From assembly GCF_016862575.1 (NCBI RefSeq), contig NZ_BONF01000025.1, positions 1 through 64,000 on the forward strand: 64,000 bases of DNA, in the 5' to 3' direction. Below the pieces are notes generated by a model. It worked only from the letters and a program-made list of their open reading frames with translations. It ran no database searches and was not told the origin of the DNA. The position numbers and the translations under genes are program-made. Source of the DNA: Catellatospora bangladeshensis (lineage in GTDB: Bacteria; Actinomycetota; Actinomycetes; Mycobacteriales; Micromonosporaceae). This document shows positions 1-54,532 of the stretch, one piece after another. Positions within the stretch are counted from its first letter, which is position 1; the number at the start of each line of letters is the position of its first letter.

Positions 1-68
1 GTGACGTAGGCGGGGTGCCGGAAATCGCGGGATTGGCGCGGTCCACCGGGTTTGCGGGCATGCAACAA

Positions 69-84
69 ATCTGCGAATGCAGAT
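69..84. repeat. 16-bp inverted repeat upstream of the sulfotransferase operon
   Basis: ATCTGC and GCAGAT arms flank a 4-base centre. The repeat lies just upstream of the LacI-type palindrome at 95-108 and could be a second regulator site or the first of a row of stem-loops. No promoter hexamers could be placed with confidence here. Confidence 0.4.
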
Positions 85-208: not shown

Positions 209-1261
209 ATGGCCGAGCTGCTCGCACTGGTCGACCGGGGCAAGCCCTACCCCTTGGCGGTGGCGGGCCCGGCCGACCTGCGCTGCGAACGAGCGGGCTC
301 CGTCGACGCCCGGATCGTGGTGACCGACCCGGCGTACAGCCTGTACTGCCTGGACCACGACAACCGCCGGGCGTTGTTCGTCAGGACCGACACCGAACCC
401 GCCCACGCGCCGTTCTACTTCCTCGCCCAGTACGAGCACGCCACCGGTGCCGTCGCGCTGTCCTACGACGAGCTGCACGCGCTGGAGACGCCGGAGCCGC
501 GCGGGGTGTTCCTCCACTCCACCGGCCGCTGCGGCTCTACCCTGGTCGCCGCCGCGCTGGCAGGGCCGGGCGGCATGGTGGGGGTGTCCGAACCGGACGC
601 GCTCACCCAGCTCGTCACCCTCTCCCCCCGGCTGGCCGAGCGCGAGCTGCGCGAGCTGGCCCGCAGCTGCGTGCGGGTGCTGTCGCGGGGACGCCCCGTG
701 GTGATCAAGCCCCGCAGCTTCGTCATCGAGCTCGCCGCGCTGCTGCACGAGGAGTGCCCCGCGTTCGCCGCCGTCTTCCTCTACCGCGACCCGCTGGCGT
801 GGGCCCGCTCCACCGCGCGGGCGTTCGCCGGATACGACCCGGCGCTGGTCACCGACCCGGCGGCGGTGCAGGACCGGCTCGGCACCCTGATCCCGCTGGT
901 CGCCCGGTGGCGCGCCCGGACGGGACGGCTGCTGTCGCCCGAGGAGGTGATGGCCTGCCAGTGGGTGTCGCAGCTGGAACGTGCGCTGGCCCTGCGCCAC
1001 CGCGGCGTGGACCTGTTCACCGCGACGTACGAGGACCTGCAGGCTGATCCGCACACGGTGCTGACGGCGCTGTTCGCGCACTGCGGCCTGCCCGCCCCGG
1101 ACGGGCTGGACGCGATCCTGGCCGAGGACGCGCAGGCCGGGACGGCACTGTCCCGCGCCGCCACGTCCGCCCGCGACGCGGGGTCCGGTGACGGGGCGCT
1201 GTTCGACGAGGCCGCGCTGACCAGAGCAGTGGCCGGGCTGTGGGCGGAGGCGCTGCGGTGA
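209..1261 (+). CDS. Sulfotransferase-family protein
   Basis: Predicted cytoplasmic P-loop sulfotransferase that would move a sulfuryl group from PAPS to a small-molecule acceptor. Residues ~103-112 read HSTGRCGSTL, which fits the 5'-phosphosulfate-binding loop. LYRDPLAWARST near residue 190 fits the 3'-phosphate-binding element. The first ~95 residues are not recognised. The 350 aa length is normal for bacterial members. The start at ATG 209 has only a diffuse G-rich stretch before it. The stop overlaps the GTG of the next gene (GTGA), so translation is coupled to the ABC exporter. The acceptor is unknown; proximity to the NRPS operon suggests tailoring of its product, which is inference. Confidence 0.7.
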   Translation: MAELLALVDRGKPYPLAVAGPADLRCERAGSVDARIVVTDPAYSLYCLDHDNRRALFVRTDTEPAHAPFYFLAQYEHATGAVALSYDELHALETPEPRGVFLHSTGRCGSTLVAAALAGPGGMVGVSEPDALTQLVTLSPRLAERELRELARSCVRVLSRGRPVVIKPRSFVIELAALLHEECPAFAAVFLYRDPLAWARSTARAFAGYDPALVTDPAAVQDRLGTLIPLVARWRARTGRLLSPEEVMACQWVSQLERALALRHRGVDLFTATYEDLQADPHTVLTALFAHCGLPAPDGLDAILAEDAQAGTALSRAATSARDAGSGDGALFDEAALTRAVAGLWAEALR

Positions 1262-2994
1262 GGGCACGGGAGCTGATCGGCCGTGGCACGCGACTGTGCG
1301 GCCACATGATCCGGTCCGAGCCCCGGCTGTTCGCCGTCTCGCTGGGCGGGGCGTGCCTGGTGGTGGGCCTGTCCATCGGCAGCGCGTTCGTCATCGGCGC
1401 CGTCGTGGCCGATGTGGTGGCGCCGATGCTCGACCGCGGCCGGGTCGACGCCGGGCTGCTGGCCGTGGCCGCCGCCGCGCTGCTGGGGGTGAGCGCGCTG
1501 AAGGTGCTGGGCATCTTCAGCCGCCGGCTGGGCGCGGTGCACCTGCAGCAGAGCCTGCAGGCGCGGCAGCGCAAGCAGATCGTGCGCAAGTACCTCAGCC
1601 TGCCGCCGGCCTGGCACCGGGACAACCCGACCGGTGCGCTGCTGTCCAACGCGTCGTCGGACGTGGACGCCGCCGCGTCGCCGGCGGGCAGCCTCGCGTA
1701 CGCCATCGCTACGGTGTTCCTGCTGGCCGGGGCGCTCACCGCGCTGTTCGCCGTCGACTGGACGCTCGGCCTGGTCGGGGTGGTCGTCTTCCCGGGGCTG
1801 GTCACGGTGTTCGCCGCGTACTCGCGCCTGGTGGCCCCGCGCCACCGGCGCAGCCAGGCGATCCGCGCCCAGGTCACCGCGCTGGCGCACGAGAGCTTCG
1901 ACGGCGCGCTGACGGTCAAGGTGATGGGCCGTGAGGAGCACCAGACGGCAAGGTTCGCCGCGCAGGTCGGCGAGCTGCGCGGCACCCTGGTGTCGATCGG
2001 CCGGGCCCGCGCCTGGCACGACCCGGTCATCGACGCGCTACCCCAGCTCGGCACGGTCGCGGTGCTCATCGTGGGCGCCTGGCGGTGCGAGCAGGGCGCG
2101 CTCGGGCTGAGCGAGCTGACCACGGCGGCGTTCCTGTTCGCGCTGCTGGACATGCCGATCCGGGCCATCGGCTGGCTGCTCGGGGCGCTGCCCCGGGCGG
2201 TGGCGGGGGCCGAGCGGGTGGACCGGGTGCTCGTCGCGCCGGACGCGCCGCCGTACGGCTCCGCCGAGGTGAGCGGGCCGGCCGAGCTGCGGTTCGCCCG
2301 GGTGGGTGTGCGAAGCCTGGACGACGTGTCGTTCCGGGTGGCGCCCGGCCGGGTGGTCGCGGTGGTCGGCCAGACCGGCGCCGGTAAGTCGAGCGTGGCG
2401 GCCGTCGCCGCGCGGCTGCTGCCGCCCGAGTCCGGGGCGGTGCTGCTCGGCGGCGTGGACGTCCGCGAGCTGAGCGCCGCCGCGTACGCGCGCGCGGTGG
2501 CCTACCTGCCGCAGGTGCCGTTCCTGTTCCAGGACAGCGTGCGGGCCAACGTGACGCTGGACCGGCCCGGCCTCGACGACGACGCGGTGTGGCAGGCGCT
2601 GGCCGTGGCGCAGGCCGACGGCTTCGTACGGGCGCTGCCGGACGGGCTGGACACCACGGTCGGCGAGCGGGGCGCGGCGCTGTCCGGCGGACAGCGGCAG
2701 CGGCTCGCGCTGGCCCGCGCGCTGGCCGGGCGGCCCCGGCTGCTCGTGCTCGACGACGCCACCAGCGCCGTCGACCCGGTGGTGGAGGCGGACATCCTGG
2801 CCGGGCTGCGGGCCGCGCACGGCCCGGCGATGCTCGTGGTCGCCACCCGCCGGCCCGCGATCGCGCTGGCCGACGAGGTCGTCTACCTGGAGGGCGGCCG
2901 GGTCGCGGCGACCGGCACGCATCAGGAGCTGATGGCGGGCGAGCCGGGCTACCGGGAACTGCTGGCGGCGTACGACCGGAGGGTGGCGGCGTGA
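1258..2994 (+). CDS. ABC exporter half-transporter, degenerate-site subunit
   Basis: Fused membrane and ATPase half-transporter of 578 aa. About six membrane helices fill residues 1-320, and the nucleotide-binding domain follows. Walker A is GQTGAGKSS (~370) and the signature is intact (LSGGQ, ~474). After Walker B, however, the catalytic Glu is Asp (LLVLDDATSAVD), and the switch His is replaced (VVATRRPA where AHRL is usual). Such changes mark the degenerate half of heterodimeric exporters. GTG 1258 is chosen because it overlaps the previous stop; an in-frame GTG at 1240 is less likely. The gene is coupled by GTGA to its partner. It probably exports the locus product; substrate inferred from context only. 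Confidence 0.85.
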   Translation: MRARELIGRGTRLCGHMIRSEPRLFAVSLGGACLVVGLSIGSAFVIGAVVADVVAPMLDRGRVDAGLLAVAAAALLGVSALKVLGIFSRRLGAVHLQQSLQARQRKQIVRKYLSLPPAWHRDNPTGALLSNASSDVDAAASPAGSLAYAIATVFLLAGALTALFAVDWTLGLVGVVVFPGLVTVFAAYSRLVAPRHRRSQAIRAQVTALAHESFDGALTVKVMGREEHQTARFAAQVGELRGTLVSIGRARAWHDPVIDALPQLGTVAVLIVGAWRCEQGALGLSELTTAAFLFALLDMPIRAIGWLLGALPRAVAGAERVDRVLVAPDAPPYGSAEVSGPAELRFARVGVRSLDDVSFRVAPGRVVAVVGQTGAGKSSVAAVAARLLPPESGAVLLGGVDVRELSAAAYARAVAYLPQVPFLFQDSVRANVTLDRPGLDDDAVWQALAVAQADGFVRALPDGLDTTVGERGAALSGGQRQRLALARALAGRPRLLVLDDATSAVDPVVEADILAGLRAAHGPAMLVVATRRPAIALADEVVYLEGGRVAATGTHQELMAGEPGYRELLAAYDRRVAA

Positions 2995-4757
2995 CGGACG
3001 GCTCCATGTGGGACACGCTGCGCCGGGCCCTGCGGCTGTCGCCCGAGCTGCGCCGCGGCCTGGCGGTCACGCTGCTGCTGGCGGTGGGCATGACGGCGGG
3101 CCGGGCGGCGGTGCCGGTGGCGGTGCAGCGGGCGATCGACGACGGCCTGCGCGGTCCGGGCGGCCCGGACTTCGGCGTGGTCGCCGCGATCGGCGCGGCG
3201 GGGCTGGGCGTGCTCGCCGTGTCGATGCTGTGCGGGTACGCGATGATGCTGCGCCTGTTCGACGTGAGCGAGACGGCGCTGGCGGCGGTCCGGGTGAAGG
3301 TGTTCCGGCACATCCACGAGCTGTCGGTGCACCACGTCGCGGCGCAGCGGCGCGGCGCGCTGGTTGCCCGGGCGACCTCCGACGTGGACCAGGTCACCTC
3401 GTTCCTGCAGTGGAACGGCGTGGTGCTGTTCATCTGCGCCGGGCAGACGCTGGTCACCGGGGCGGTGATGTTCTTCTACTCGTGGCCGCTGGCGCTGGTG
3501 GTGCTCGCCGTGTTCGCCCCGGTCGGGTGGGTGGTGCGGGCCTGCATGCGCAACCTCGCCGCGGCGTACGGGACGGTGCGCGAGCGCTCGGCGGAGATGC
3601 TCGCGATGGTGTCGGAGAGCGTCACCGGCGCTGACGTGATCCGCTCCTACGACGTCGCCGACCGCGCCGTGGGGCGCCTGGACCGGGCGGTGGACGCGCA
3701 CCGGCACGCCTCGCAGCGCGCCTCCCGGCTGACCGTCACCGCGTACTCGGTCGGCGAGCTGGCCACCGGGGTCGCGCTGGCCGCCACGGCCGTGCTCGGG
3801 GTGGTGCTCGGCGTGGCGGGACGGCTGACGGTCGGCGAGATCGCGGCGTTCCTGTTCCTGGTGGCCCAGTTCGCGCTGCCCGCGCAGGTGGCCGGGGAGA
3901 TGCTCAACGGGCTGCAGAACGCGGTCGCCGGGTGGCGGCGGGTGCTGGACGTGCTCGACCTCCCGCCGGACGTCACCGAGCACGCCGAGGCGGTCGAGCT
4001 GCCGCCGGGCCCGGTGCCGGTGTCGCTGCGGGGCGTGGGGTTCACCTACCCGGGCGGGGCCGAGCCGGTGCTGCGTGAGGTGGATCTCGACATCGCGGCG
4101 GGCAGCCGGGTCGCGGTGGTGGGCCGGACCGGGGCCGGCAAGACCACGCTGGCCAAGCTCGTCGCCCGGCTGGCCGACCCGTCGTCCGGCCGGATCCTGC
4201 TGGCGGGGGTGCCCGTGGACCGGGTACGCCTGAGCAGCCTGCGCGAGCGGGTGATCCTGGTGCCGCAGGAGGGTTTCCTGTTCCGGGGGACGCTGGCCGA
4301 CAACATCCGGTTCGGGCGCCCGCTCGACTACGACGACGTGGCAGACGTCCTGCGCGAGCTGGGACTGCTCGACTGGGCGGCTCGCCTGCCGGAGGGGCTG
4401 GACACGGTCGTCGGCGAGCGTGGCGAGAGCCTGAGCGTGGGCGAGCGGCAGTTCGTGGCGCTGGCCCGCGCCCACGCGGCCGGCGCGGACCTGCTGATCC
4501 TGGACGAGGCGACCAGCGCCGTCGACCCGGCGGCCGAGGTGCGGCTGCGCACCGCGATGGCGCAGGTGGCGCACGGGCGGACCACGATCACCGTCGCGCA
4601 CCGGCTGGCCACGGCCCGCGAGGCCGACGAGGTGATCGTCATCGACGGGGGCCGGGCGGTGCAGCGCGGCCACCACGACGAACTCGTCGCGGTGGCCGGT
4701 TCGGCGTACGCGAAGCTGCACGAGGCCTGGCTCGCCGGGGAGCGGGCGCTGGCCTGA
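2991..4757 (+). CDS. ABC exporter half-transporter, catalytic-site subunit
   Basis: Second half-transporter, 588 aa, with an N-terminal membrane domain and a C-terminal nucleotide-binding domain. Walker A is GRTGAGKTT (~376). Walker B carries the catalytic Glu (LLILDEATSAVDP) and the switch His is present (TVAHRLAT). Its signature motif is altered to LSVGE in place of LSGGQ (~480). The defects are exactly complementary to those of the upstream partner, as in asymmetric heterodimeric exporters. GTG 2991 overlaps the upstream stop (GTGA). The reading frame is open far upstream, but that part is not coding for this protein. It ends a three-gene + operon. Confidence 0.87.
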   Translation: MTDGSMWDTLRRALRLSPELRRGLAVTLLLAVGMTAGRAAVPVAVQRAIDDGLRGPGGPDFGVVAAIGAAGLGVLAVSMLCGYAMMLRLFDVSETALAAVRVKVFRHIHELSVHHVAAQRRGALVARATSDVDQVTSFLQWNGVVLFICAGQTLVTGAVMFFYSWPLALVVLAVFAPVGWVVRACMRNLAAAYGTVRERSAEMLAMVSESVTGADVIRSYDVADRAVGRLDRAVDAHRHASQRASRLTVTAYSVGELATGVALAATAVLGVVLGVAGRLTVGEIAAFLFLVAQFALPAQVAGEMLNGLQNAVAGWRRVLDVLDLPPDVTEHAEAVELPPGPVPVSLRGVGFTYPGGAEPVLREVDLDIAAGSRVAVVGRTGAGKTTLAKLVARLADPSSGRILLAGVPVDRVRLSSLRERVILVPQEGFLFRGTLADNIRFGRPLDYDDVADVLRELGLLDWAARLPEGLDTVVGERGESLSVGERQFVALARAHAAGADLLILDEATSAVDPAAEVRLRTAMAQVAHGRTTITVAHRLATAREADEVIVIDGGRAVQRGHHDELVAVAGSAYAKLHEAWLAGERALA

Positions 4758-4764
4758 GCTGCGG

Positions 4765-5361
4765 CTAGCGGGGGTCGCCGCAGGCGATCTTCGCGCCGGG
4801 CCGATCGCCCTCGGGCAGCTGCAGCACGGTCACCTGGTCCACCCCGGGCAGCTTCCACAGCGGCGCGAGCTGCTCGCAGTCGAACCAGACGGCCGTGACG
4901 ACGGCCCGCCAGGACTCGGGCATGTTCGACGCGTCGCCGGTGAGGAGGTCGGGGCGGTCCTTGAGCATCCCCTTGAACTTCGCCCACGCCTGCTCGCGGC
5001 TCTCGTAGCCGAGCTCCTCCGGTTCAAGCGCCGCCAGCGCGCGACCCACCGCCTCCCTCTGCTCGGCGGACGGGTCGCGCTTGAGGTAGACCGCCACGTC
5101 GAACCGGCCGGCCGGGGCGAACCGCCCCGTGAACACGATCGCCCCGGTGGCCACCAGGGCCCCGGCGAGCACGCCCGCCAGCGCGGCGAACACCACGAGA
5201 CGTCCTCGCCGGGCAGGCGGGTGCTCGGTGCCCGGCGCGGCGGCCACCTCGCCGGGCTCGGCGGCCGTCACCTCGCCGGGCACGGGGGTGGGCACGGGCT
5301 CGGGCACGTCAGGCAGGGATTCATTACTCGGCTCGGACACGAGGAACAGTTCTACCATCAT
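4765..5361 (-). CDS. Single-pass membrane protein with FtsX-like extracellular domain
   Basis: 198 aa. A Pro/Glu-rich cytoplasmic N-terminus leads to one membrane helix (~52-78) and an external domain. That domain reads like the FtsX ectodomain: FDVAVYLKRDPSAEQREAV, then ESREQAWAKFKGML, then NMPESWRAVV, then LPGVDQVTVL. The four-helix permease part of FtsX is absent. In FtsEX the ectodomain recruits peptidoglycan hydrolases, so this protein may act on cell-wall enzymes or be a decoy; that is inference. It lies 33 bp downstream of the glycosyltransferase stop on the same strand and could be the last gene of that operon. Starts at 5358 (ATG) and 5340 (GTG) are also possible. Confidence 0.6.
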   Translation of the reverse strand: MMVELFLVSEPSNESLPDVPEPVPTPVPGEVTAAEPGEVAAAPGTEHPPARRGRLVVFAALAGVLAGALVATGAIVFTGRFAPAGRFDVAVYLKRDPSAEQREAVGRALAALEPEELGYESREQAWAKFKGMLKDRPDLLTGDASNMPESWRAVVTAVWFDCEQLAPLWKLPGVDQVTVLQLPEGDRPGAKIACGDPR

Positions 5362-5394
5362 GATCCGCTTCGTGGGGGGCGGCCGGTTCGCCCG

Positions 5395-6570
5395 TCAGCG
5401 CAGGCAGTCCTCGATGACGTCGGCGGCCCGCGCCGCGCCGCCCGCGGTGGCGACCGCGCGGCGCAGGTGGTCCACGCCGTCGCCGATCGCCGGGTCCTTG
5501 ACCATCAGCTCGACGGTGTCCTTCAGCCCGCCGGGATCGGTCAGGCCGGCCGGCAGCCGTACGCCGAGGCTCAGCTCCTCCACCCGCAGCGCGTTGGCCT
5601 CCTGCTCCAGGGTCTGCGGCGCGGCGAGCACCGGCACGCCGTGGCTCATCGCCTCCATGATCCCGCCCATGCCCGCGTGGCAGATCAGCGCGGTGGCGTG
5701 GGCGAGCACGTCCAGCTGCGGCACGAAGCGGTGCAGCTCGACGTTGCGCGGCAGGCGGCCGAGCGCGGTCAGGTCGATCCGCTCCCCGACGGCGAGCACC
5801 ACGTGCCAGTCGCTGCCCGCGAACGCGTCGGCGCAGTAGCGGTAGAAGTCGGGCCGGGCGTTGTAGATCGTGCCGAGGGTGACCAGGATGACGTCCCGGT
5901 CGCGGGGCGGCTGCCAGCGCAGCGGCGTACGCCGCAGGCACGGCCCGACGAACCGGTAGCCGGGGCCGAACCGCTCCCCGGCGTACTGGAACGCGCGGGG
6001 GTAGAACGCGAGCTGCGCCTCGGGCTGCGGGGTGAGGAACTCCTCCGGGGCCAGGGCCGGGCAGTGCGTGCCGAGGAACCGCTCCAGCTTGGCGAGGTAG
6101 GTGTGCAGGACCGGGTCGGCGGGGTCGAACGCGTCCAGCGCCTGCCCCATCGACCAGTGCTCGTTGGAGACGAGCATCGGCCACAGCTGCACCGACGGCA
6201 GCTCCATCCGGGCGGCCAGGACCCGCCCGGCGAACGCCATCCGGTCGAACACGACCAGGTCCGGCGGGTCGTTCCGGTAGACGGGCGCGAGCTGCTCGTA
6301 CGCGGCCTCGGCCTCTTCCAGGAAGCTGAGCAGGCTGTGGCTGATGTAACCGGCGCGGTCGGGCGCCCGTACGGTCGGGTCGCTGTCCGGCGGGCGCAGC
6401 GACCGGTACGCGTGCACGGCCGCCCCCGCCTCGGCCAGCGCCGCGCGGCGGCTCTCGGAGGTGCCGTAGGTGACCCGGTGCCCGCGGCGCGTCAGCTCCT
6501 GCACCACGGCCAGGGTGGGGAACACGTGCCCGATCGCGGGGATGTTGACGAACGCGATGTGCCTACCCAC
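5395..6570 (-). CDS. Macrolide-family (GT1) glycosyltransferase
   Basis: 391 aa, cytoplasmic GT-B enzyme expected to transfer a nucleotide-activated sugar to a hydroxyl of a natural product. The N-terminal NIPAIGHVFPTLAVVQEL is the acceptor-side signature. The C-terminal HAGMGGIMEAMSHGVPVL with PQTLEQEANA is the nucleotide-sugar-binding region of the MGT/OleD group. The GTG start overlaps the upstream condensation gene by 8 bases, so it belongs to the same coupled operon. Members either decorate antibiotics or inactivate them for self-protection; the position at the end of an NRPS operon favours decoration. No sugar-biosynthesis genes are nearby. Confidence 0.8.
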   Translation of the reverse strand: MGRHIAFVNIPAIGHVFPTLAVVQELTRRGHRVTYGTSESRRAALAEAGAAVHAYRSLRPPDSDPTVRAPDRAGYISHSLLSFLEEAEAAYEQLAPVYRNDPPDLVVFDRMAFAGRVLAARMELPSVQLWPMLVSNEHWSMGQALDAFDPADPVLHTYLAKLERFLGTHCPALAPEEFLTPQPEAQLAFYPRAFQYAGERFGPGYRFVGPCLRRTPLRWQPPRDRDVILVTLGTIYNARPDFYRYCADAFAGSDWHVVLAVGERIDLTALGRLPRNVELHRFVPQLDVLAHATALICHAGMGGIMEAMSHGVPVLAAPQTLEQEANALRVEELSLGVRLPAGLTDPGGLKDTVELMVKDPAIGDGVDHLRRAVATAGGAARAADVIEDCLR

Positions 6571-7879
6571 GGAGTGCCCCCAGCTCGGAGAGGCGGTCCC
6601 CCGGCCGGGCGACCGCGGCGGACAGGATCTGCTCGTAGCGTTCGGCCAGCTCCGCGACGGTGTCCGGCCGGAACAGCGCGGTGTCGTAGCGGATCCCGGC
6701 GCGCAGTCCCGCCTCGTCCAGCCGCCAGATGTCGAACACCAGGTCGTGCAGCACCTTGGCGTGCCCGTGCGGGAAGCCTTCGATCTCCAGCGGGCCCAGG
6801 TGCGAGGCGAGCACCGGGTTGTCGTTGCGCATGCTGAACACGACGTCGAACAGCTGGGTGCGGCCGGGGTCGCGGGGCACGCCCAGCGTCGAGATGATCT
6901 TCCCGAGCGGTACGGACTGCCGCTGGAGTCCCCCGATGACGCCGGTCCGGGTGCGCCGGAGCAGGTCGGTGAAGGTCGGGTCGCCGGACAGGTCGGCGCG
7001 CAGCGCGAGGGTGTTCGCGAACAGCCCCACCACCGGCTCGAACTCGGCCCGCACCCGCCCGGCGACCGGGGTGCCGACGCAGAAGCCGTCCTGGCCGCTG
7101 CGCTCGTGCAGCAGCACCTGCAACGCCGCGAGCAGCACCATGAACGGGGTGCACCGGGCCCTGCGGGACAGCTCGATCACCTGCGTGGCCAGGTCCGGGC
7201 CCATCTGGTGGATGTGCTCGGCGCTGTGCGCGGACTTCTCGGCCGGGCGGGGCGAGTCGGTGGGCAGCTCCAGCGAGGTGGCGCCGGCCAGCCGCTCGCA
7301 CCAGTACGCCAGGTCGGCGGCCTGGTCCTGGGCCGCCTGCCACTGCGCGAAGTCGCCGTACTGCAGCGTCAGCTCCGGCAGGTCGGGTTTGGTGCCGTCG
7401 AGGGCGGCGAGGTAGGCGGCGCGGATCTCGCGGCCGACGATGCGCAGCGACGCGCCGTCGGCCAGCAGGTGGTGCATGGTGAAGCAGAAGACGTGGTGGT
7501 CGTCGTCCAGCCGCAGCAGGCACGAGCCGACCAGCGGGTCGGCGGTGAGGTCCAGCAACCGGTGGGTACGCGCGCGCAGCAGCTCCCCGGCCCGCGCGTC
7601 CCGCTCGTCGCCGGGCAGCTCCCGCAGGTCCACCAGCTCGGTGTCCATGCCGGCCGGCGGCATGACGACCTGCACCGGCTCGCCGTCGCGGAGCACGAAG
7701 CCGGTGCGCAGGCTCTCGTGCCGGTCCACGACGGCGTCCACCGCCGCCCGCCAGGCGGCCACGTCCAGCGGGCCGCGCAGCCGCCAGTTGAGCACCAGGA
7801 TCGGCGACGCGTCGCCGGGGTACGCCGTGCACAGGTACCAGAAGCGCTGTTGCAGCGCCGACAGCGGCAGATGCCTCAC
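6563..7879 (-). CDS. Stand-alone NRPS condensation domain
   Basis: 438 aa, one condensation domain with nothing fused. It begins with LPLSALQQRFWYL (motif C1) and carries an intact HHLLADG (HHxxxDG motif C3) near residue 135. Later it has the VGLFANTLALR and QRQSVPLGKII stretches of C5-C6. It should catalyse amide or ester bond formation between two carrier-bound acyl groups, one probably on the free carrier protein encoded just upstream. Start and stop overlap its neighbours (ATGA with the carrier protein; 8 bases with the glycosyltransferase). Confidence 0.85.
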   Translation of the reverse strand: MRHLPLSALQQRFWYLCTAYPGDASPILVLNWRLRGPLDVAAWRAAVDAVVDRHESLRTGFVLRDGEPVQVVMPPAGMDTELVDLRELPGDERDARAGELLRARTHRLLDLTADPLVGSCLLRLDDDHHVFCFTMHHLLADGASLRIVGREIRAAYLAALDGTKPDLPELTLQYGDFAQWQAAQDQAADLAYWCERLAGATSLELPTDSPRPAEKSAHSAEHIHQMGPDLATQVIELSRRARCTPFMVLLAALQVLLHERSGQDGFCVGTPVAGRVRAEFEPVVGLFANTLALRADLSGDPTFTDLLRRTRTGVIGGLQRQSVPLGKIISTLGVPRDPGRTQLFDVVFSMRNDNPVLASHLGPLEIEGFPHGHAKVLHDLVFDIWRLDEAGLRAGIRYDTALFRPDTVAELAERYEQILSAAVARPGDRLSELGALRG

Positions 7880-8115
7880 AGCCGTTCCTCCACCATCCGG
7901 GTGATCGCGTCGAGGGTGTCCGCGCCGGGCCCGTCACCGAGGTCCACCTCGACGCCGAACTCCAGGTCGATGGCGTCGATGAGCCGCAGCGCGCCGAGCG
8001 AGTCCAGGCCCAGCGCCCGCAGCGAGCCCCCGGCCAGCGCCTGCTCGGCGGTGACCGTGCCCGTGGTGGCGTCGTGCACCAGCGCGGCTAGGCGGCCGCT
8101 CAGCTCCGCGCTCAC
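7876..8115 (-). CDS. Free acyl/peptidyl carrier protein
   Basis: 79 aa, the usual size of a discrete carrier protein. LGLDSLGALRLIDA holds the Ser that receives the phosphopantetheine arm, near residue 39. The acidic helix-2 face (AIDLEFGVEVDLGDG) is typical. It is sandwiched by 4-base overlaps between the C-A-T NRPS and the free condensation domain. The AMP ligase of the same operon is the obvious candidate to load it, and the two condensation domains to unload it. No phosphopantetheinyl transferase is in the window. Confidence 0.85.
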   Translation of the reverse strand: MSAELSGRLAALVHDATTGTVTAEQALAGGSLRALGLDSLGALRLIDAIDLEFGVEVDLGDGPGADTLDAITRMVEERL

Positions 8116-10982
8116 GGCTGCTCCCGCAGGTACTGCGCGATCTCGGCGATGGTGGGCGTGTCGAAGAAGACGTCCAGCGGCACGTCGCGGCCGAGCTGCT
8201 GGGTGATCCGCACACTGATCCGGGTGATGGTCAGCGAGTGACCGCCCAGGTCGAACAGGTCCTCGTCGTCGCCGACGTCCTCGACGGACAGCACCTCCTG
8301 CCAGATCGCCCGCAGCGTCTCGACCAGCTCGTCGTCACCGGAGGCGCGCGTGTCGCGGACCGGCGCGGCGGTGCGGGACAGGACCGGCTCGGGCAGCGCG
8401 GCGCGGTCGAGCTTGCCGCTCGGGGTGAGCGGCAACCGGTCCAGGACCGTCCAGGAGGTCGGCACGGTGGCGGCGGGCAGCCGCTGGCCAAGGTGGCGGC
8501 GCAGCTCGGCGGCGTCGGGGGCGGTGTCCCGGGGCACCAGGTATCCGGCCAGCTCGCCGCCGCGCAGGGTCACGGCCGCCTGGGCCACGCCGGGGTGCTC
8601 GCGCAGGTGGGCCTCGATCTCCTCCAGCTCGACCCGGTGCCCGCGTATCTTGACCTGGCCGTCGTCGCGGCCGCCGTAGACGAGCCGCCCGTCCGCCGAC
8701 CACCGGCACCGGTCCCCGGTGCGGTAGAGGCGGCCGGGTCCGAACGGGTCGGGCACGAAGCGCTCGGCGGTGAGATCCGGGCGGCGCAGATAGCCGTCGG
8801 CCACGCCGTCGCCGCCGATGCACAGCTCGCCCCAGACCCCGGCGGGCAGCGGCCGCCCGGCGGGATCCAGCACGTAGGTGCGGGTGTTGGCGATCGGGCG
8901 GCCGATGGTGACCGTGTCCGGCTGGTCGGGGATCTCGTCGGCGGTGGACCAGATGGTGGTCTCGGTCGGGCCGTACACGTTGATCAGCCGGGCCGTCCGG
9001 GCGCGCAGCCGCCGGGCCAGGTCCGGCGGCAGCGCCTCGCCACCGGCCAGCGCCGTGACCGCCGGGCCGTCGAAGCCCGCCTCCAGCAGCACCTGCCAGC
9101 CGGACGGGGTCGCCTGCACATGGGTCACGCCCTCGCGCTCGATCAGCGCGGCGACGGCGCGGCCCTCCAGCGCGCTCAGATCGCTGGCGATCACCAGGCG
9201 ACCGCCGGTGACCAGCGGCAGGAACAACTCCAAACCGGAGATGTCGAACGACAGCGGGGTCAGCCCGAGCCACCGGTCCCCCGGCCGGCTGCCGACCGCC
9301 TCGGCCATGCCGAGCAGCAGGTTGGCCAGCGCGGAGTGCGGCACCACGACACCCTTCGGCCGCCCGGTGGTGCCTGAGGTGTACATGACGTACGCCGTCC
9401 CGGCCGGGACCGCGCCGCCGGGACGCGCCTGCGGGACGGCGTCCAGGCCCTCGAGGATCAGCGCCGGGTCGGCGTCGGCGAGGATCAGCTCCTGCCGGGC
9501 CTGCGGGTAGGACGGGTCGACGGGCACGTACGCCGCGCCCGCGCGCAGCACCGCGAGCATCGCGACCAGCGCCTGCCAGCCGCGCGGCAGCCGGACCGCG
9601 ACCAGCGCGCCCTCCCCCGGCAGCCGCGCGGCGAGCGCGGTGACGGCGCGGTCGAGTTCGGCGTAGCTCAGGCGCACGTCGCCGTCGACGACCGCCGTCT
9701 CGTCCGGGTGCAGCCCGGTCTGCGTGGCCAGCAGCCGGACCAGGCTCTCGCGCCGGGGGCGGGCGGTGTCGTTCCAGCGGTGCAGCACGGTGTCGGCCTC
9801 GGCGGCGGGCATGATCGGCAGCGTCGCGACGTCGGCGTCCGGGTCGGCCGCGACGGCGGTCAGGACCGTGCGCAGGTGCTCGCCGATCCGCCGCGCCGCG
9901 GCCACGGGCAGCCGGGCCGGGTCGTGCTGGAGGCTCGCGATGAGCCCGTCCGGGCCATCGACGAACTGCAGGTGCAGCGCGTTGCGGGCACTGCCGCCGA
10001 ACAGCGCCCACTGCACCTCGGCGGCCAGGCCGGGGAACTCCGGCGCCGGGCCGCGCCGCCGGTAGCCCACCGACACCGCGGTCAGCGAAGGCGCGGCCCG
10101 CAGTCCGCCGCTGACCTGCGCCAGCGGCACGGCCCGATGCCGGTACAGGTCACGCAGGCGCGACCGCAGCGCCGTGGCGTAGTCCCGGAACCGCCCGGCG
10201 GCCGGTGCGACGGTGACGGGCAGCTCGTTGACGTGCAGGCCGATGTGGCGCGCGGTGTGCTCGGTGCGGGTGGACAGCCCGATCGCGACGGGCAGGCCGG
10301 TGTTGCCGTAGCGGGCCAGCAGCACGTGGATCGCGGCGAGCAGCACCTCGAACCGGGTGAAGCCCGCGACGTCCACGGTTGGCAGCTCGACCTCCATGGC
10401 ATGTCCGGGCTCCGCCGCGATGGGGACACCGGTCAGGTCGGGCAGCACCACCTCGCCGCCGGGGCTGACGGCCTGGTCGGTCCAGTAGGCGCGCGCGGCG
10501 GCGACGGCCTGCTCGCCGGGCGCGCCGTCCGTGGCAGCGGGGAGCGGGGCGAGTTCGGTCCCGGCGTACGCGGCGGCTAGGTCGGCCAGCAGCAGGTCCT
10601 TGGACATGCCGTCGAAGACCAGGTGGTGGGCGGTGAACAGGAGCAGGTGCCGGGTGGGCGTCTCGCGCAGCAGCAGGAACCGGGCCAGCGGCCCGCGCGC
10701 CAGGTCGTACGGGCGGGCGATCTCCTCGCGCACCCGCTGCTCGCTGTACGCCGCGTCGGTCAGCGTGACCTTCTCCGCGGCGGGGACCAGCTCCGGCAGG
10801 TCACCGGCGAGCGTCACCGCACTCGACAGCATCGGATGCCGGGCGACGACCGCCGCGCACGCCTCCCCCAGCGCGTGCCGGTCGAGGTCGCCGTCGAGCC
10901 GGACTCCGAGCGCCATGTGGTACGCGGTGCCCGCGACCTGTGCCTGCTCGGTGAACCACACGCCGTGCATGATCGGATTCAC
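8112..10982 (-). CDS. NRPS module, condensation-adenylation-thiolation
   Basis: 956 aa single module. The condensation domain (~1-430) has an intact HHLVFDG. The adenylation domain (~430-870) has YTSGTTGRPKG, NVYGPTETT, YRTGDRC and the catalytic Lys in TPSGKLDR. The carrier domain (~880-950) has DLFDLGGHSL. There is no thioesterase or epimerase. Reading the eight pocket positions from FDISGLE, HVQATPSGW, ALAGGE and NVYGPTETTIW plus the invariant Asp and Lys gives D-I-L-Q-L-G-V-I-W-K. This differs at one position from the glycine code I remember (DILQLGLIWK), so glycine is predicted. GTG 10982 overlaps the ligase stop (GTGA). Confidence 0.9.
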   Translation of the reverse strand: MNPIMHGVWFTEQAQVAGTAYHMALGVRLDGDLDRHALGEACAAVVARHPMLSSAVTLAGDLPELVPAAEKVTLTDAAYSEQRVREEIARPYDLARGPLARFLLLRETPTRHLLLFTAHHLVFDGMSKDLLLADLAAAYAGTELAPLPAATDGAPGEQAVAAARAYWTDQAVSPGGEVVLPDLTGVPIAAEPGHAMEVELPTVDVAGFTRFEVLLAAIHVLLARYGNTGLPVAIGLSTRTEHTARHIGLHVNELPVTVAPAAGRFRDYATALRSRLRDLYRHRAVPLAQVSGGLRAAPSLTAVSVGYRRRGPAPEFPGLAAEVQWALFGGSARNALHLQFVDGPDGLIASLQHDPARLPVAAARRIGEHLRTVLTAVAADPDADVATLPIMPAAEADTVLHRWNDTARPRRESLVRLLATQTGLHPDETAVVDGDVRLSYAELDRAVTALAARLPGEGALVAVRLPRGWQALVAMLAVLRAGAAYVPVDPSYPQARQELILADADPALILEGLDAVPQARPGGAVPAGTAYVMYTSGTTGRPKGVVVPHSALANLLLGMAEAVGSRPGDRWLGLTPLSFDISGLELFLPLVTGGRLVIASDLSALEGRAVAALIEREGVTHVQATPSGWQVLLEAGFDGPAVTALAGGEALPPDLARRLRARTARLINVYGPTETTIWSTADEIPDQPDTVTIGRPIANTRTYVLDPAGRPLPAGVWGELCIGGDGVADGYLRRPDLTAERFVPDPFGPGRLYRTGDRCRWSADGRLVYGGRDDGQVKIRGHRVELEEIEAHLREHPGVAQAAVTLRGGELAGYLVPRDTAPDAAELRRHLGQRLPAATVPTSWTVLDRLPLTPSGKLDRAALPEPVLSRTAAPVRDTRASGDDELVETLRAIWQEVLSVEDVGDDEDLFDLGGHSLTITRISVRITQQLGRDVPLDVFFDTPTIAEIAQYLREQP

Positions 10983-12445
10983 GCGTCACCTCCGGTGCCG
11001 GCGGGGAACAGCGCCACCAGCTGTCGTTTGAGGACCTTGCCCGCGTCGTTGCGCGGGAGTTCGTCGAGCACGAGCAGGTCGCCGGGCAGCTGGTGGTCGG
11101 CGAGCCGGGCGGCGAGGAAGGCCCGGACGGCGGGCAGGTCGAGCCGGGCCGCGTCCGGGCGGGGCACGACCACGGCGGCCAGCCGGGTGCCCAGCACCGC
11201 GTGCGGCACGCCGAGCACGGCCGCGGCGGCGACGCCAGGGTGCTCGTGCAGCGCGTTCTCGACCTCCAGCGTGGAGATCTTGTAGGCGCCGGATTTGACC
11301 ACGTCGCCGTCCCGGTCGGACAGGTAGAGGAAGCCCTCGTCGAGGCGGCCCAGGTCGCCCATGCGCACCCAGCCGTCCTGGAAGGTGTCCCGGGTGGCGC
11401 GCTCGTCGCCGAGGTAGCGGCGGGCGAACGGCGAGCGCAGCCATACGTGCCCGGTCTCGCCGTCGGGCAGAGGGCTGCCGTCGGCGCCGGTGATGCGTAC
11501 CGCGCCACCGGTGACGCGGCCGACGGCGTCCGGCCGCCGGGGGTCGAAGATGGTGGTGGTGTGCGCGGGCGCGGCCTCGGTGGACGTGTAGTGGTTGACG
11601 ATCGCGGCGTTGGGGAAGGCGCGGGCCAGCCGCAACGCGACAGCGGGCGGCAGCGGCGCGGCGGTCGAGCCGACCAGGTGTACGCCGCCCAGGTCGACGC
11701 CGTCCAGCGCGCCGGAGTCGAGCAGCTCGATGGCCGTCGCGGGGACCAGGAACACGGTGCCCGCCTCGGGCAGCCGCGCGGCGAATCGGCGCGGGGTGAA
11801 GCGGGGCAGGGTCAGCGCGGCGGGCCGGGCGGTGAGCGCGTTGACGAGCATCGTCTGCGCGGCGTTGGTGCCGATCGGAAAGGCGTGCAGGAACCGCCGG
11901 GAGTGGGCCAGCGGCATCCGGTTCGGGTGAGTGGGCGCGCCCGAGGTGAGGTTGGCGTGGGTCGCGGCGACCGCCTTGGGCACGCCGGACGTGCCGGAGG
12001 TGAACAGGATCTGGGCGGCGTCGGCCGGGCGGGACAGGTCCACGCCGTCGGGCGTCCCGGCCGCGACCAGCGCGTCGACGTCGTCGCGGCCGTTGACGAC
12101 CAGCTGCGCGCCGCACGCGTCCAGCAGCTGCGCCAGCCGGGCCGGGGGCAGCTGGTCGGGCAGCGGCACGGCGATCCCGCCGGCCAGCTGCACGCCGCAG
12201 TACGCGACGGCGAAGGCGGTCCAGTCGCGGCCCGCGAACGCCAGCCCGACGGCGGTGCCCGGCGTGACGCCCCGGTCGCGCAGCGCCGCGGCAAGGGCGG
12301 CGGAGCCGTCGGCCCACTGCGCGAAGGTGAGCGTGTCGACGCCCGCGACCTCGATGGCGATCTGGTCCGGGTGCCGGGCACGCCGCGCGGCCAGCAGGCC
12401 GGGCACGGTGCACGGTCGCGGGGGGTGCTCGCCGATCCCGGGCAT
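10979..12445 (-). CDS. Acyl-AMP ligase / CoA-ligase-like adenylating enzyme
   Basis: 489 aa, first gene of the NRPS operon. The ATP-binding P-loop is ILFTSGTSGVPK (~145). HYTSTEAAPAHTT matches the A5 motif, GDLGRLDEGFLYLSDRDGD the A7 motif, and NDAGKVLK carries the catalytic Lys near the C-terminus. SGAYKISTLEVE is more like acyl-CoA synthetases than NRPS A domains. It likely activates a carboxylic acid starter and loads the free carrier protein or makes a CoA ester; the substrate cannot be read. ATG 12445 is chosen because AGGAGA lies about 9 bases upstream; the frame is open further upstream without coding support. Confidence 0.82.
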   Translation of the reverse strand: MPGIGEHPPRPCTVPGLLAARRARHPDQIAIEVAGVDTLTFAQWADGSAALAAALRDRGVTPGTAVGLAFAGRDWTAFAVAYCGVQLAGGIAVPLPDQLPPARLAQLLDACGAQLVVNGRDDVDALVAAGTPDGVDLSRPADAAQILFTSGTSGVPKAVAATHANLTSGAPTHPNRMPLAHSRRFLHAFPIGTNAAQTMLVNALTARPAALTLPRFTPRRFAARLPEAGTVFLVPATAIELLDSGALDGVDLGGVHLVGSTAAPLPPAVALRLARAFPNAAIVNHYTSTEAAPAHTTTIFDPRRPDAVGRVTGGAVRITGADGSPLPDGETGHVWLRSPFARRYLGDERATRDTFQDGWVRMGDLGRLDEGFLYLSDRDGDVVKSGAYKISTLEVENALHEHPGVAAAAVLGVPHAVLGTRLAAVVVPRPDAARLDLPAVRAFLAARLADHQLPGDLLVLDELPRNDAGKVLKRQLVALFPAGTGGDA

Positions 12446-12550
12446 GGGAGAACGTCTCCTAACACGACGGAGAAGCGGGGATCGGCATCTCGCCCGCACA
12501 TCGACACGAGTCTGCATCCGGGCCGCCGGGCGGGGCATCGTCCGAACGGA

Positions 12551-12564
12551 GGAAAGCGCTTTCC
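12551..12564. promoter_or_regulatory. LacI-family-type operator (copy 2)
   Basis: GGAAAGCGCTTTCC is a perfect 14-bp palindrome in the 144-bp divergent promoter region between the AMP ligase and the condensation-like gene. It covers the expected -35 position of the leaderless + promoter whose -10 is at 12578-12583. It shares 13 consecutive bases with the site at 95-108. Confidence 0.6.
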
Positions 12565-12577
12565 ATCGGCCCCGGCC

Positions 12578-12583
12578 TACGCT
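12578..12583 (+). promoter_or_regulatory. -10 element, leaderless promoter
   Basis: TACGCT fits the TAnnnT -10 consensus and ends 6 bases before ATG 12590. No Shine-Dalgarno sequence lies at the right distance, so the mRNA probably starts at or next to the start codon. Confidence 0.45.
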
Positions 12584-12589
12584 GTCGTG

Positions 12590-14032
12590 ATGTCCATCCA
12601 CGGTCATCACATCGATGCCGCTCCGGCGGACCTCGCCCGGCGGTGGCGGGCGACGCAGGTGAGCACGCCGTTCGCCGGGCCGCCCGACCCCGGCGCGCCG
12701 CTCACCTGGGGCCAGCGGGCACTGTGGATCGCCATCCGCCGGCACGGCGCCGCGCAGGCCATGTTCAGCCTCCGCCGGGTCGTCGCCGCACCCCGCCGCA
12801 CCCCGCTCGGCGTGCCCGCGGCGCTGCGCGCCGTCGGCGCCCTCGTCACCCGGCACGGCTCGCTGCGCACCCGCGTCCGCGCCGTGGACGGCGAGCTGCG
12901 CCAGGTCGTCGCCGCGTCAGGCGAGCACCCGGTGCTGATCGTGCCGATCGGCGACGCCCCGGCCGACGACGGCGCGGCGCTGGCGCAGCAGCTCGCCGCC
13001 GACCTCGCCGCGACCCCGTTCGACCACGCCGAGGAGTGGCCCCAGCGTTTCGCGCTGCTGGTCGCGGGCGAGCGGGTATGCCAGGTGGCCGTCGTGCTCA
13101 GCCACACCACCGTCGACTTCCGCGCAGCCGAGCTGGTCCTGCGCGACCTGCGCCTGCTGCTGGTACGCGGCGGCGTGCCCGCCCCCGCCCCGCCCCAGTC
13201 GGCCGACATCGCCCGCCTCGAACAGAGCGAGCGGCACCGGCGGCGCTGCGAGCGCGCCGTACGCCACTGGATCGACAGCACGCGGCGGCTGCCCGCCGAG
13301 ACGCTGCCGGCCGTCGGGCCGGCGCTGGTCCCGCGCTTCCGCCGGTGCGTGCTCACCTCGTCGGCGGCAGGCGCCGCGGCCCGGCTGATCGCCCGCCGCG
13401 AGCAGGTGTCCAGCTCCACCGTGCTGCTCGCTGCGGTCGCCGGGGTGATCACCGCCTGGTCGGGCGAGCCGGTCTGCGGCGTGTACACGATGGTCAACAA
13501 CAGGTCGGCCGACGACTACCGCGAGGCGATCTCGAAGCTCAACCAGCTCGGCCTGCTCGTGATCGACCTCGGCGACCGGCCGTCGTTCGCCGCGGCGCTG
13601 CCCCGGGTGTGGCACGCGGCCGTCGAGGCGTACCGGCACGCGTACTACGACCCGGAGGAGATGGCGCGGGCGCACGAGGCGGCCGGGCTGCCCTACGCCA
13701 CCGGCGTCAACCGGCACTGCTACTTCAACGACATCCGCCTCGCGCCGGAGTCCGAGACGGCAGGCGACGCCGTGGACCCGGCGGACCTGCGCGCGGCCAT
13801 GGCCCGCACGACCTTCGCCCCGGCCGAGGAGCTGGACACCTTCACCTGGCTGATGCGGGTCGAGGTGATCGACGCGCCGGGCGCGCTCGGCCTGGCCGTC
13901 ACCGGCGACACCGCCCACCTGCCCCCAGCCGTTGCCGAGCGCTTCCTGCGCGCCCTGGAACGGCTGCTGGTCGACGCGGCCCTCGGCGACCTGCCGTGGC
14001 CCTGGAGCGCACCGGCGGACGCCACCGGCTGA
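12590..14032 (+). CDS. Condensation-domain-like protein with altered active-site motif
   Basis: 480 aa, divergent from the NRPS operon. The fold signals of condensation/acyltransferase superfamily members are visible: LTWGQRALWIAIRR near residue 38, and RHGSLRTRVRAVDG like motif C2. In place of HHxxxDG it has SHTTVDF, so the second (catalytic) His and the Asp are kept while the first His and the Gly are lost. VYTMVNNR and FNDIRL stand near the usual C5-C6 positions. It may be an acyl or peptidyl transferase that releases the chain, or a non-catalytic partner. ATG 12590 is chosen over GTG 12587 because of the -10 spacing. Confidence 0.65.
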   Translation: MSIHGHHIDAAPADLARRWRATQVSTPFAGPPDPGAPLTWGQRALWIAIRRHGAAQAMFSLRRVVAAPRRTPLGVPAALRAVGALVTRHGSLRTRVRAVDGELRQVVAASGEHPVLIVPIGDAPADDGAALAQQLAADLAATPFDHAEEWPQRFALLVAGERVCQVAVVLSHTTVDFRAAELVLRDLRLLLVRGGVPAPAPPQSADIARLEQSERHRRRCERAVRHWIDSTRRLPAETLPAVGPALVPRFRRCVLTSSAAGAAARLIARREQVSSSTVLLAAVAGVITAWSGEPVCGVYTMVNNRSADDYREAISKLNQLGLLVIDLGDRPSFAAALPRVWHAAVEAYRHAYYDPEEMARAHEAAGLPYATGVNRHCYFNDIRLAPESETAGDAVDPADLRAAMARTTFAPAEELDTFTWLMRVEVIDAPGALGLAVTGDTAHLPPAVAERFLRALERLLVDAALGDLPWPWSAPADATG

Positions 14033-53494: not shown

Positions 53495-54532
53495 TCAGAG
53501 GAACGCGCCGACGCTCGGGGTGGCGCCGTCCGCGCCCCAGCCGAAGACCGCCGCGTACAGGGCCCGGCGCTTGGCGGCGCCGTTGCTGATCTGGCTCGGG
53601 GTGCATGCCTGGGTGCCGGTGCCGCAGACCCAGCCGTGCAGGAACAGCCGCCAGCCGCCGTCCAGCGACGGGGTGACGTCCGCGCCGCCCGGCCCGCAGA
53701 TGCCGGTGCCCGCCGTGGTCAGCAGGGTGTGCTCGGTCGCGCCCGCGAAGTGCCAGCGGTCCGCCGAGCGCAGCCACACCGTGGCGTAGCTGCAGTTGTC
53801 GTAGCCGTAGCGCGACGCGAGCAGGACGAACTGGCTGCCGCGCTGCACCAGCACCGGGTTCTCGATGATGCCGTCGCGCTGCAGCAGCTCGCCGCTGTCG
53901 TTACCGAACCAGTGCGTCCCGTCGGCGGTCAGCCGGACCATCCGCAGCGAGGACGGGGTCTGCTGGGTCTTGTACAGCAGGAAGCGCTTGCCGTCGCTGT
54001 CGGCGAACGGGGACGGGTCGATCACGCCCGCGTCGGCGACGGGCCGTCCGGGCACCCGGTCCTCACCGCCGTGCCTGCCGCCGGGGCAGACCAGCGGCGC
54101 GGCGGTGGGCCGGAACAGCGCGCCGGGGTCGGCGGTGGTGTTGACCGCGACGCCGATGCACCGCTGGCCGCCGAAGTCCTTCGCCGGGGCCGAGAAGTAC
54201 ATGACGAGTCCCGCGCTGGTCCGCCATACGTCGGGCGCCCAGACGTCGTCGGACGCCATCCAGCCCGGCATCGGGTCGAGGTCGAGCCCGGCGCCCTCGG
54301 CGTTCCACGGCCCGGCCGCCTCGTCGCCCCGGCTGACGCGGGCGCCGCCGCCGGTCGAGTACGCGTAGAAGTCGCCGTCCTCCCGGAACACGCCCGGGTC
54401 GGCGATCGAGTGGGCGGGGGCGTACACAGGCTGCGGCGCGGCCGCGTGTGCCGGCCTTGGAGTGACGAGCAGCAGTGTCGTGAGCAGCATCGTGCCGAGC
54501 GCCGCCGATCCGGGCTTCCTCATGCGCCGCAC
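53495..54532 (-). CDS. Secreted GH43-like glycosidase
   Basis: 345 aa. A signal peptide is followed by a five-bladed beta-propeller. HSIADPGVFREDGDFYAYST has the general-base Asp, DDVWAPDVWRTSAGLVMYFSA the blade-2 motif, AGVIDPSPFADSDGKRFLLYK the pKa-modulating Asp, and GIIENPVLVQRGSQFVLLAS the acid Glu. GH43 enzymes act on arabinan, xylan or galactan side chains. A TAGATA -10 (54544-54549) lies 11 bases before GTG 54532, so the leader is very short; ATG 54523 is also possible. Confidence 0.83.
   Translation of the reverse strand: MRRMRKPGSAALGTMLLTTLLLVTPRPAHAAAPQPVYAPAHSIADPGVFREDGDFYAYSTGGGARVSRGDEAAGPWNAEGAGLDLDPMPGWMASDDVWAPDVWRTSAGLVMYFSAPAKDFGGQRCIGVAVNTTADPGALFRPTAAPLVCPGGRHGGEDRVPGRPVADAGVIDPSPFADSDGKRFLLYKTQQTPSSLRMVRLTADGTHWFGNDSGELLQRDGIIENPVLVQRGSQFVLLASRYGYDNCSYATVWLRSADRWHFAGATEHTLLTTAGTGICGPGGADVTPSLDGGWRLFLHGWVCGTGTQACTPSQISNGAAKRRALYAAVFGWGADGATPSVGAFL

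Follow-up and report, generated by a model that had tools for sequence, protein, structure and literature searches.

In Catellatospora bangladeshensis, the initial 64 kb of contig 25 (the window: the whole stretch of DNA analyzed, in which base 1 is the contig end of an 8.8 Mb genome denoted G000) carry a nine-gene nonribosomal peptide synthetase (NRPS) locus whose regulatory motifs are shared with genes of pectin degradation. Our best reading of the locus is that it makes an exported, pectin-triggered acyl-glycine metabolite that bears glycosyl and probably also sulfate groups, where membership of the pectin-degradation regulon is well supported by motif sequence and conservation and the chemistry of the product is what we infer. 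As a whole, the proposal of a LacI-repressed biosynthetic locus that, in Catellatospora and closely related genera, belongs to the regulon for pectin degradation and yields an exported acyl-glycine product is one we hold with moderate confidence. The arrangement is a new and conserved form of NRPS chemistry; it is of interest mainly for its control region, which links it to the digestion of pectin.

The nine genes, which form one set, are listed below with the control elements and one gene that is not part of the cluster. Pfam backs each of the ten gene calls, NCBIfam and Pfam both support the genes named in an earlier, sequence-only reading, and predicted structures also support the sulfotransferase (ST) and the condensation-like (C-like) protein. 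Features are given by window coordinates and strand; C, A and T denote condensation, adenylation and carrier domains.

61-74, plus strand: TGCAACAAATCTGC, the second control motif, ahead of the ST promoter (genome-wide motif search)
95-108, no strand assigned: LacI-type operator GGAAAGCGCTTACC in the ST promoter (motif conservation)
209-1261, plus strand: ST of the 3'-phosphoadenosine-5'-phosphosulfate (PAPS) type (Pfam PF13469, weak at 5.9e-7; conserved residues; fold match)
1258-2994, plus strand: ATP-binding cassette (ABC) exporter half 1, ABC1 (Pfam ABC_membrane and ABC_tran)
2991-4757, plus strand: ABC exporter half 2, ABC2 (Pfam ABC_membrane and ABC_tran)
4765-5361, minus strand: FtsX extracellular-domain protein (FtsX_ECD), not a cluster member (Pfam PF18075)
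5395-6570, minus strand: GT1 glycosyltransferase (GT) of the macrolide-glycosyltransferase (MGT) subfamily (NCBIfam TIGR01426; Protein Data Bank (PDB) relatives)
6563-7879, minus strand: free-standing condensation enzyme (free C) with intact HHLLADG (PF00668, 8.7e-83; motif)
7876-8115, minus strand: free carrier protein with LGLDSL serine motif (PF00550, 5.2e-6; motif kept in relatives)
8112-10982, minus strand: NRPS module C-A-T with glycine pocket DILQLGVIW (Pfam; pocket residues)
10979-12445, minus strand: stand-alone AMP-forming acid ligase (Pfam; pocket segments conserved family-wide)
12551-12564, no strand assigned: LacI-type operator GGAAAGCGCTTTCC in the divergent promoter region that serves the ligase and C-like genes (the same sequence in all 11 loci)
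12590-14032, plus strand: divergent C-like enzyme with SHTTVDF (PF00668, 4.4e-15; C-domain fold)

Short overlaps of start and stop codons chain the ligase, C-A-T, carrier, free C and GT genes, and likewise those of ST, ABC1 and ABC2. These overlaps suggest two operons that converge on the gap between GT and ABC2, with the C-like gene divergent from that of the ligase, and the locus is probably read as three transcripts. Because of the overlap with the ST stop codon, translation of ABC1 probably starts at 1258 and not at 1240 as in the mechanical open reading frame (ORF).

The link to pectin digestion comes from the operator. In the gap between the ligase and C-like genes, the mean pairwise identity of GGAAAGCGCTTTCC over the window and ten relatives is 1.00, compared with 0.60 and 0.49 in the two flanks. 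Its near-copy GGAAAGCGCTTACC, or a close variant of it, is present in 10 of 12 ST upstream stretches; in the window, by our own reading, it lies between a −35-like TTGTTT (87-92) and a −10-like TAGCGT (111-116). The pattern GGNAAGCGCTTNCC occurs at 12 sites genome-wide, against three for the reversed pattern and approximately one expected from base composition. Both promoter regions of the cluster account for two of the 12; outside it, six sites adjoin genes of the pectate-lyase or Pel9A-like kind, and single sites adjoin a pectinesterase gene, a DUF6807 gene and a LacI/GFO-IDH-MocA gene pair, the last of these sites overlapping the opening codons of lacI as mechanically called. A further operator-like site with three mismatches at 53979-53992 could be due to chance.

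The same kind of genes (matches in relatives being counted down to 30% identity) adjoin the operator sites in G006, the closest relative, in G019, which belongs to another genus, and in the Rhizocola genome G051. Of the 22 sites in the cluster-free genomes G005, G007 and G009, 16 were inspected (six of 11 in G005), and such genes also adjoin 11 of these. The divergent LacI/GFO-IDH-MocA pair with a site between its genes recurs in G006, G019, G051, G007 and G009. When 115 loci were scanned, which include loci other than ligase loci as well as duplicates (L045/L060, L046/L062, L047/L063, L048/L069, L049/L072 and L055/L070, which also double rows of the ligase and C-like alignments), the operator was found in 11, all of them pieces of the present locus type, and not in the ligase loci of Micromonospora, Streptosporangiaceae or Streptomyces.

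A second motif points to the same set of genes. TGCAACAAANCTGC has five exact matches in the 8.8 Mb genome and none for a reversed control: one at window positions 61-74 before ST, three before genes for Pfam-recognized pectate lyases and one before a Pel9A-like gene. Five copies are present in G006 and six in G019, again with none for the control in either. In G000 it lies within 60 bases of three of the 12 operators and is therefore considered an optional element of the regulon. As we read them, some promoters have a TTGAC-like hexamer directly after the motif, which would thus be placed like an activator site.

Pectinolytic genes also border the cluster. The left border is ST, as defined in G006, where the region lies on one contig; there, ST is preceded by a GDSL-type hydrolase gene (Pfam, on the G003 copy) and then by a Pel9A-like lyase gene with its own operator. 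In the window genome that lyase gene lies at the end of contig 72, which suggests that contig 72 precedes contig 25. Two pectate-lyase relatives precede ST in G019, and six lyase tblastn matches stand in a row before it in G051 (L162), of which two are Pfam-confirmed and two overlap, representing perhaps five genes. On the right side, a pectate-lyase-like gene follows 220-223 bases behind an operator in four Catellatospora species; one of these genes was Pfam-confirmed in part.

The gene set itself is conserved, which the sequence-only reading had left to comparison with relatives. Eight of the 11 Catellatospora genomes (that of the window included) carry the C-like gene at 77-100% and the ligase gene at 81-100% identity; the searches for ligase and ST relatives covered a sample of 300 genomes of the family, with at most the best five or six candidates scored per genome. 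Tblastn searches of the loci of 20 relatives placed all nine genes in the same order in G006, G003, G004, G008, G010 and G019, the last with the full set in another genus. The fetched stretch of G001 starts inside ABC1, with ST just outside; in G002 the ABC and ST genes lie on a second contig; in Allorhizocola (G028) all nine genes are present, spread over three contigs; and in Rhizocola G051 the genes other than GT lie on two contigs. Relatives of ST with at least 48% identity occur in 11 genomes of the sample, the same 11 that have this locus type, and relatives with 37-40% identity in five more. Rhizocola has, in addition, a separate set of C-like, ST, ABC1 and ABC2 genes, and a lone C-like gene (L227:9910-11292) that is 59% identical to that of the window and has its own exact operator, with no other cluster gene matched in the 20 kb fetched. 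In three Catellatospora species a gene that by eye resembles a P450 lies to the right of the C-like gene (L058:6774-8090, L059:6822-8123 and L038:18706-19501); it was not seen there in the window.

The assembly-line proteins have intact catalytic motifs. HHxxxDG is intact in both the module C domain and free C, and the carriers contain LGGHSL and LGLDSL. The A-domain pocket reads DILQLGVIW plus the lysine of the LPLTPSGKLDR motif, one position off the glycine code, which we take to be DILQLGLIWK; this upholds the earlier assignment of glycine. Each of the nine type-I relatives read, a group that does not comprise G028, has the same pocket as the window. Across 92 aligned ligase rows, some of them duplicates, the pocket segments are nearly unchanged, on which basis all of these ligases probably take a single kind of acid; the aligned segments did not distinguish an aryl from an amino-acid ligase. 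The C-domain subtype (starter, LCL or DCL) was addressed through PDB matches.

The C-like protein retains in SHTTVDF the histidine and aspartate of catalytic type and lacks the first histidine of HHxxxDG. HxxxD is present in all 102 aligned rows, a number that includes some duplicates and some other, HHxxxDG-bearing C domains. Its AlphaFold model (predicted local distance difference test (pLDDT) score of 88) matches C domains, with a best E of 4.0e-27 and a query-normalized TM-score of 0.68. The best sequence match, at only 35.5 bits, is PDB 4znm, a C-domain type II peptide synthetase, presumably SgcC5 of the C-1027 pathway; the likeness lies in the free-standing C fold, which in 4znm, as we understand it, acts on a carrier-bound substrate.

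Evidence for the place of the ligase comes from a sister cluster type (free C, GT, ligase-T-C and C-A-T) found in Catellatospora, Rhizocola and G019. In its eight loci the ligase, a carrier and a C domain are in tandem, in a single open frame in all three translated, which places the ligase before the carrier and supports, at the level of gene architecture, the earlier suggestion that the ligase loads the free carrier. The genes for free C and GT, which overlap in the window, are neighbors in seven of the eight loci, the eighth starting at a contig end. The sister cluster has a ligase, C-A-T, free C and GT homologous to those of the present one; in contrast, its pocket is not that for glycine (FDMSVPE in the five read), its loci show no ST match and no operator, and a P450 is present in the one scanned (L173, Pfam). 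A related cluster, with ligase, carrier and C in a single frame and a non-glycine C-A-T, is located at the start of contig 47 of the window genome (L181:9-6013).

Among the ten proteins Pfam recognized no release domain (thioesterase or reductase) and no phosphopantetheinyl transferase, in line with the sequence-only reading; the rest of the genome gave four ACPS-domain matches, three of them over the cut-off, and three MbtH matches.

Both tailoring families named earlier, the GT1 glycosyltransferase and the sulfotransferase, were borne out. GT scores 350 bits against a cut-off of 260 for the MGT model TIGR01426 and has oleandomycin glycosyltransferase, CalG2 and YjiC as PDB relatives. In ST, a GRCGST loop, Arg193 and Ser201 are invariant in 17 aligned sequences; we take them to be the 5'-phosphosulfate-binding loop and the 3'-phosphate-binding Arg/Ser pair of PAPS-dependent sulfotransferases. 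Its AlphaFold model (pLDDT 87) finds the sulfotransferase fold among the 50 PDB matches listed, with a best E of 6.0e-5, 24 matches at E ≤ 0.001 and low query-normalized TM-scores of 0.28-0.43. Two of the matches listed are retinol dehydratase with 3'-phosphoadenosine-5'-phosphate; Teg12/Teg14, Stf0 and protein-tyrosine sulfotransferases are listed alike, the Teg12/14 and retinol dehydratase entries being presumably sulfotransferase-fold proteins. A doubt about this identity had come from PDB sequence matches, which were AAA-type proteins with weak scores, and was answered by the fold match. On the modeled fold, the loop and the Arg/Ser pair, and with the TM-scores low, the predicted product of 209-1261 is a PAPS-dependent sulfotransferase. 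In three genomes of another genus (L147, L149 and L151; g34), distant ST relatives (35-37%) directly follow a gene that by eye is GT1-like, with weak GT matches in two; in L148 and L150 the gene next to the distant relative resembles GlgE by eye.

We propose the following mechanism, in which the order of steps is a guess. A LacI-family repressor, for which the best candidate is the LacI encoded divergently from a GFO/IDH/MocA oxidoreductase (G000:C48), would keep the locus off until a breakdown product of pectin appears. The ligase would then activate one particular carboxylic acid and load it onto the free carrier, the C-A-T protein would load glycine, and its C domain would join the two. Free C, translationally coupled to GT, would move the acyl-glycyl chain to an acceptor alcohol or amine; such release, which is known for other free C enzymes, is proposed by analogy as the simplest end for a line without a thioesterase. 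GT would add a sugar, the C-like enzyme a further acyl group from the carrier and ST a sulfate, before the ABC pair, encoded after ST, would export the finished compound; this gene order may link sulfation and export. The switches common to the cluster and to pectin-digesting enzymes suggest that production occurs when the bacterium meets plant cell walls. A tentative extension, which we consider possible and hold with clearly less confidence, is that the locus represents a new class of pectin-triggered metabolite, namely an exported, glycosylated and sulfated N-acyl-glycine from a thioesterase-free line with free C enzymes, made only during pectin digestion and acting there on the plant or on competitors.

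The exporter genes invite a different chemical explanation. The nearest NCBIfam model for both ABC halves is MsbA, below the cut-off, and ABC1 follows ST wherever the contig continues in this locus type. Together with the separate Rhizocola set and the C-domain fold of a protein without the first histidine of HHxxxDG, these features would suit a sulfated, acylated cell-surface glycolipid, with the C-like protein and free C as counterparts of the mycobacterial PapA proteins, which are acyltransferases, and the ABC pair as a flippase. Weighing against such a product are the conserved glycine-type A domain and two HHxxxDG C domains and the lack of any gene of fatty-acid synthesis among the ten proteins; an envelope lipid, moreover, is not what one would readily expect under pectin control. 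We consider the glycolipid unlikely.

Several observations tell against control of an acyl-glycine pathway by pectin. The operator count within the window is by itself not significant (three matches at up to three mismatches, 1.7 expected), so the operator evidence rests on conservation and genome context. One genomic site (C12) has no recognized gene beside it, the same being true of L184 and its counterpart L199; in G005, G007 and G009, four of the 16 sites matched no query protein and one more only an ABC half at 30%. Both Rhizocola copies of ST lack the operator in the stretch searched, and GT is missing from its place in Rhizocola, where the best match (51%) sits in a sister cluster. The second motif is found at only one of the two promoter regions of the cluster, that of ST, and a looser form of it is less specific, with 17 matches across 1.98 Mb of related loci, among them those of the present type. 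Three of the 11 Catellatospora genomes retain the regulon and lack the cluster, which thus appears to be an optional member. A second LacI gene (L229:3679-4758) lies nearer the cluster, and the repressor named above is for this reason a candidate only. Finally, operators of similar shape serve other LacI-type regulators, such as IolQ of Bacillus subtilis (PMC5504672), and the 12-base core appears in a paper on CcpA cre boxes. The operator might thus be a general sugar or catabolite site of the CcpA/cre type, the link to pectin being incidental; with only 12 sites in 8.8 Mb, seven of the ten outside the cluster adjoining pectate-lyase-type or pectinesterase genes, and an independent second motif that singles out pectate-lyase-type genes and the ST promoter, this is improbable. 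Another possibility is that the cluster is what remains, decayed or incomplete, of a larger NRPS pathway that has lost a thioesterase module. This might be suggested by related Micromonospora loci, which have an additional C-A-T protein (C-A(Asp-like)-T-TE-MFS in L047, the only one scanned) but no GT, ST or free C match beside the core; it is very hard to reconcile with nine open genes under purifying selection (ratio of nonsynonymous to synonymous substitution, dN/dS, of 0.055-0.25 against G006) and the same set retained in at least two genera.

The proposed pectin-controlled acyl-glycine pathway has a parallel in thaxtomin biosynthesis. The thaxtomin enzymes are unrelated to those of the present cluster, and the operator described here, we presume, differs from the CebR box. 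The thaxtomin cluster of Streptomyces scabiei is reported to have two CebR sites and to be induced by cello-oligosaccharides (PMC8914351). The proposed likeness consists of an NRPS cluster with two repressor sites, putative ones here, for a plant-polymer response inside it and a cell-wall sugar as trigger (PMC8914351, PMC8552735), the two candidate sites here being common to pectinolytic genes, which take the place of cellulolytic ones; the systems differ in that cellulose and CebR act there, as opposed to pectin-type sites here, and in that the activator TxtR is present there, whereas no regulator gene is among the ten proteins here. Acyl-starter lipopeptide systems, for example that of rotihibin (RthH/RthK), likewise combine a stand-alone ligase and carrier with an NRPS (PMC8552735). 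Unlike the acyl-starter lipopeptide systems as described there, the present locus has a single A domain, no thioesterase and no acyl-CoA dehydrogenases, and adds GT and ST; rotihibin was rejected as a known relative on its differing gene list. No characterized match to the cluster was found in NCBIfam or in the papers searched, nor, with narrow term combinations, a named product for it or for the wider ligase family. In the open-licence papers listed we noticed no earlier pectin-controlled NRPS cluster and, among titles and excerpts that concerned Bacillus, Lactobacillus, Clostridium and human, no report of the operator or second motif in actinomycetes.

Orphan clusters are often silent for want of a known trigger, and here the DNA points to pectin fragments. 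If true, this would add to cellobiose, CebR and thaxtomin a further case of a natural product wired into the digestion of a plant polymer. The chemistry, with a glycine line, one acid ligase, two carriers, three C-type enzymes and no thioesterase, would show free C enzymes releasing and decorating small acyl-amino acids.

Homologs of the ligase, C-A-T, carrier and C-like proteins stand side by side, in varied forms, in Micromonospora, Streptosporangiaceae, Streptomyces and others (80 of 184 relatives were kept). These loci share the conserved ligase pocket; they are mostly larger NRPS clusters, many with C-T replacing C-A-T, and in those scanned ST and the operator were seen in the present locus type only. 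In one Micromonospora locus (L047:2478-8060) the NRPS protein is a C-A-T-TE fused to a major facilitator superfamily (MFS) transporter. The sequence-only reading was supported in part, with respect to the protein families, glycine, the loaded carrier and conservation, whereas a sulfated and glycosylated product and release by a condensation enzyme are predictions; it had overlooked the control elements, the pectate-lyase neighborhood, the wide actinomycete family and the foreign nature of the FtsX_ECD gene.

This last gene (4765-5361) was rejected as a cluster member, no match to it being kept in 20 related loci, and is, judged by these comparisons, a local insertion at the point where the two operons converge. 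The same position is occupied in G001 by a set that by eye includes a radical-SAM-like gene, and the gap seems to accept insertions.

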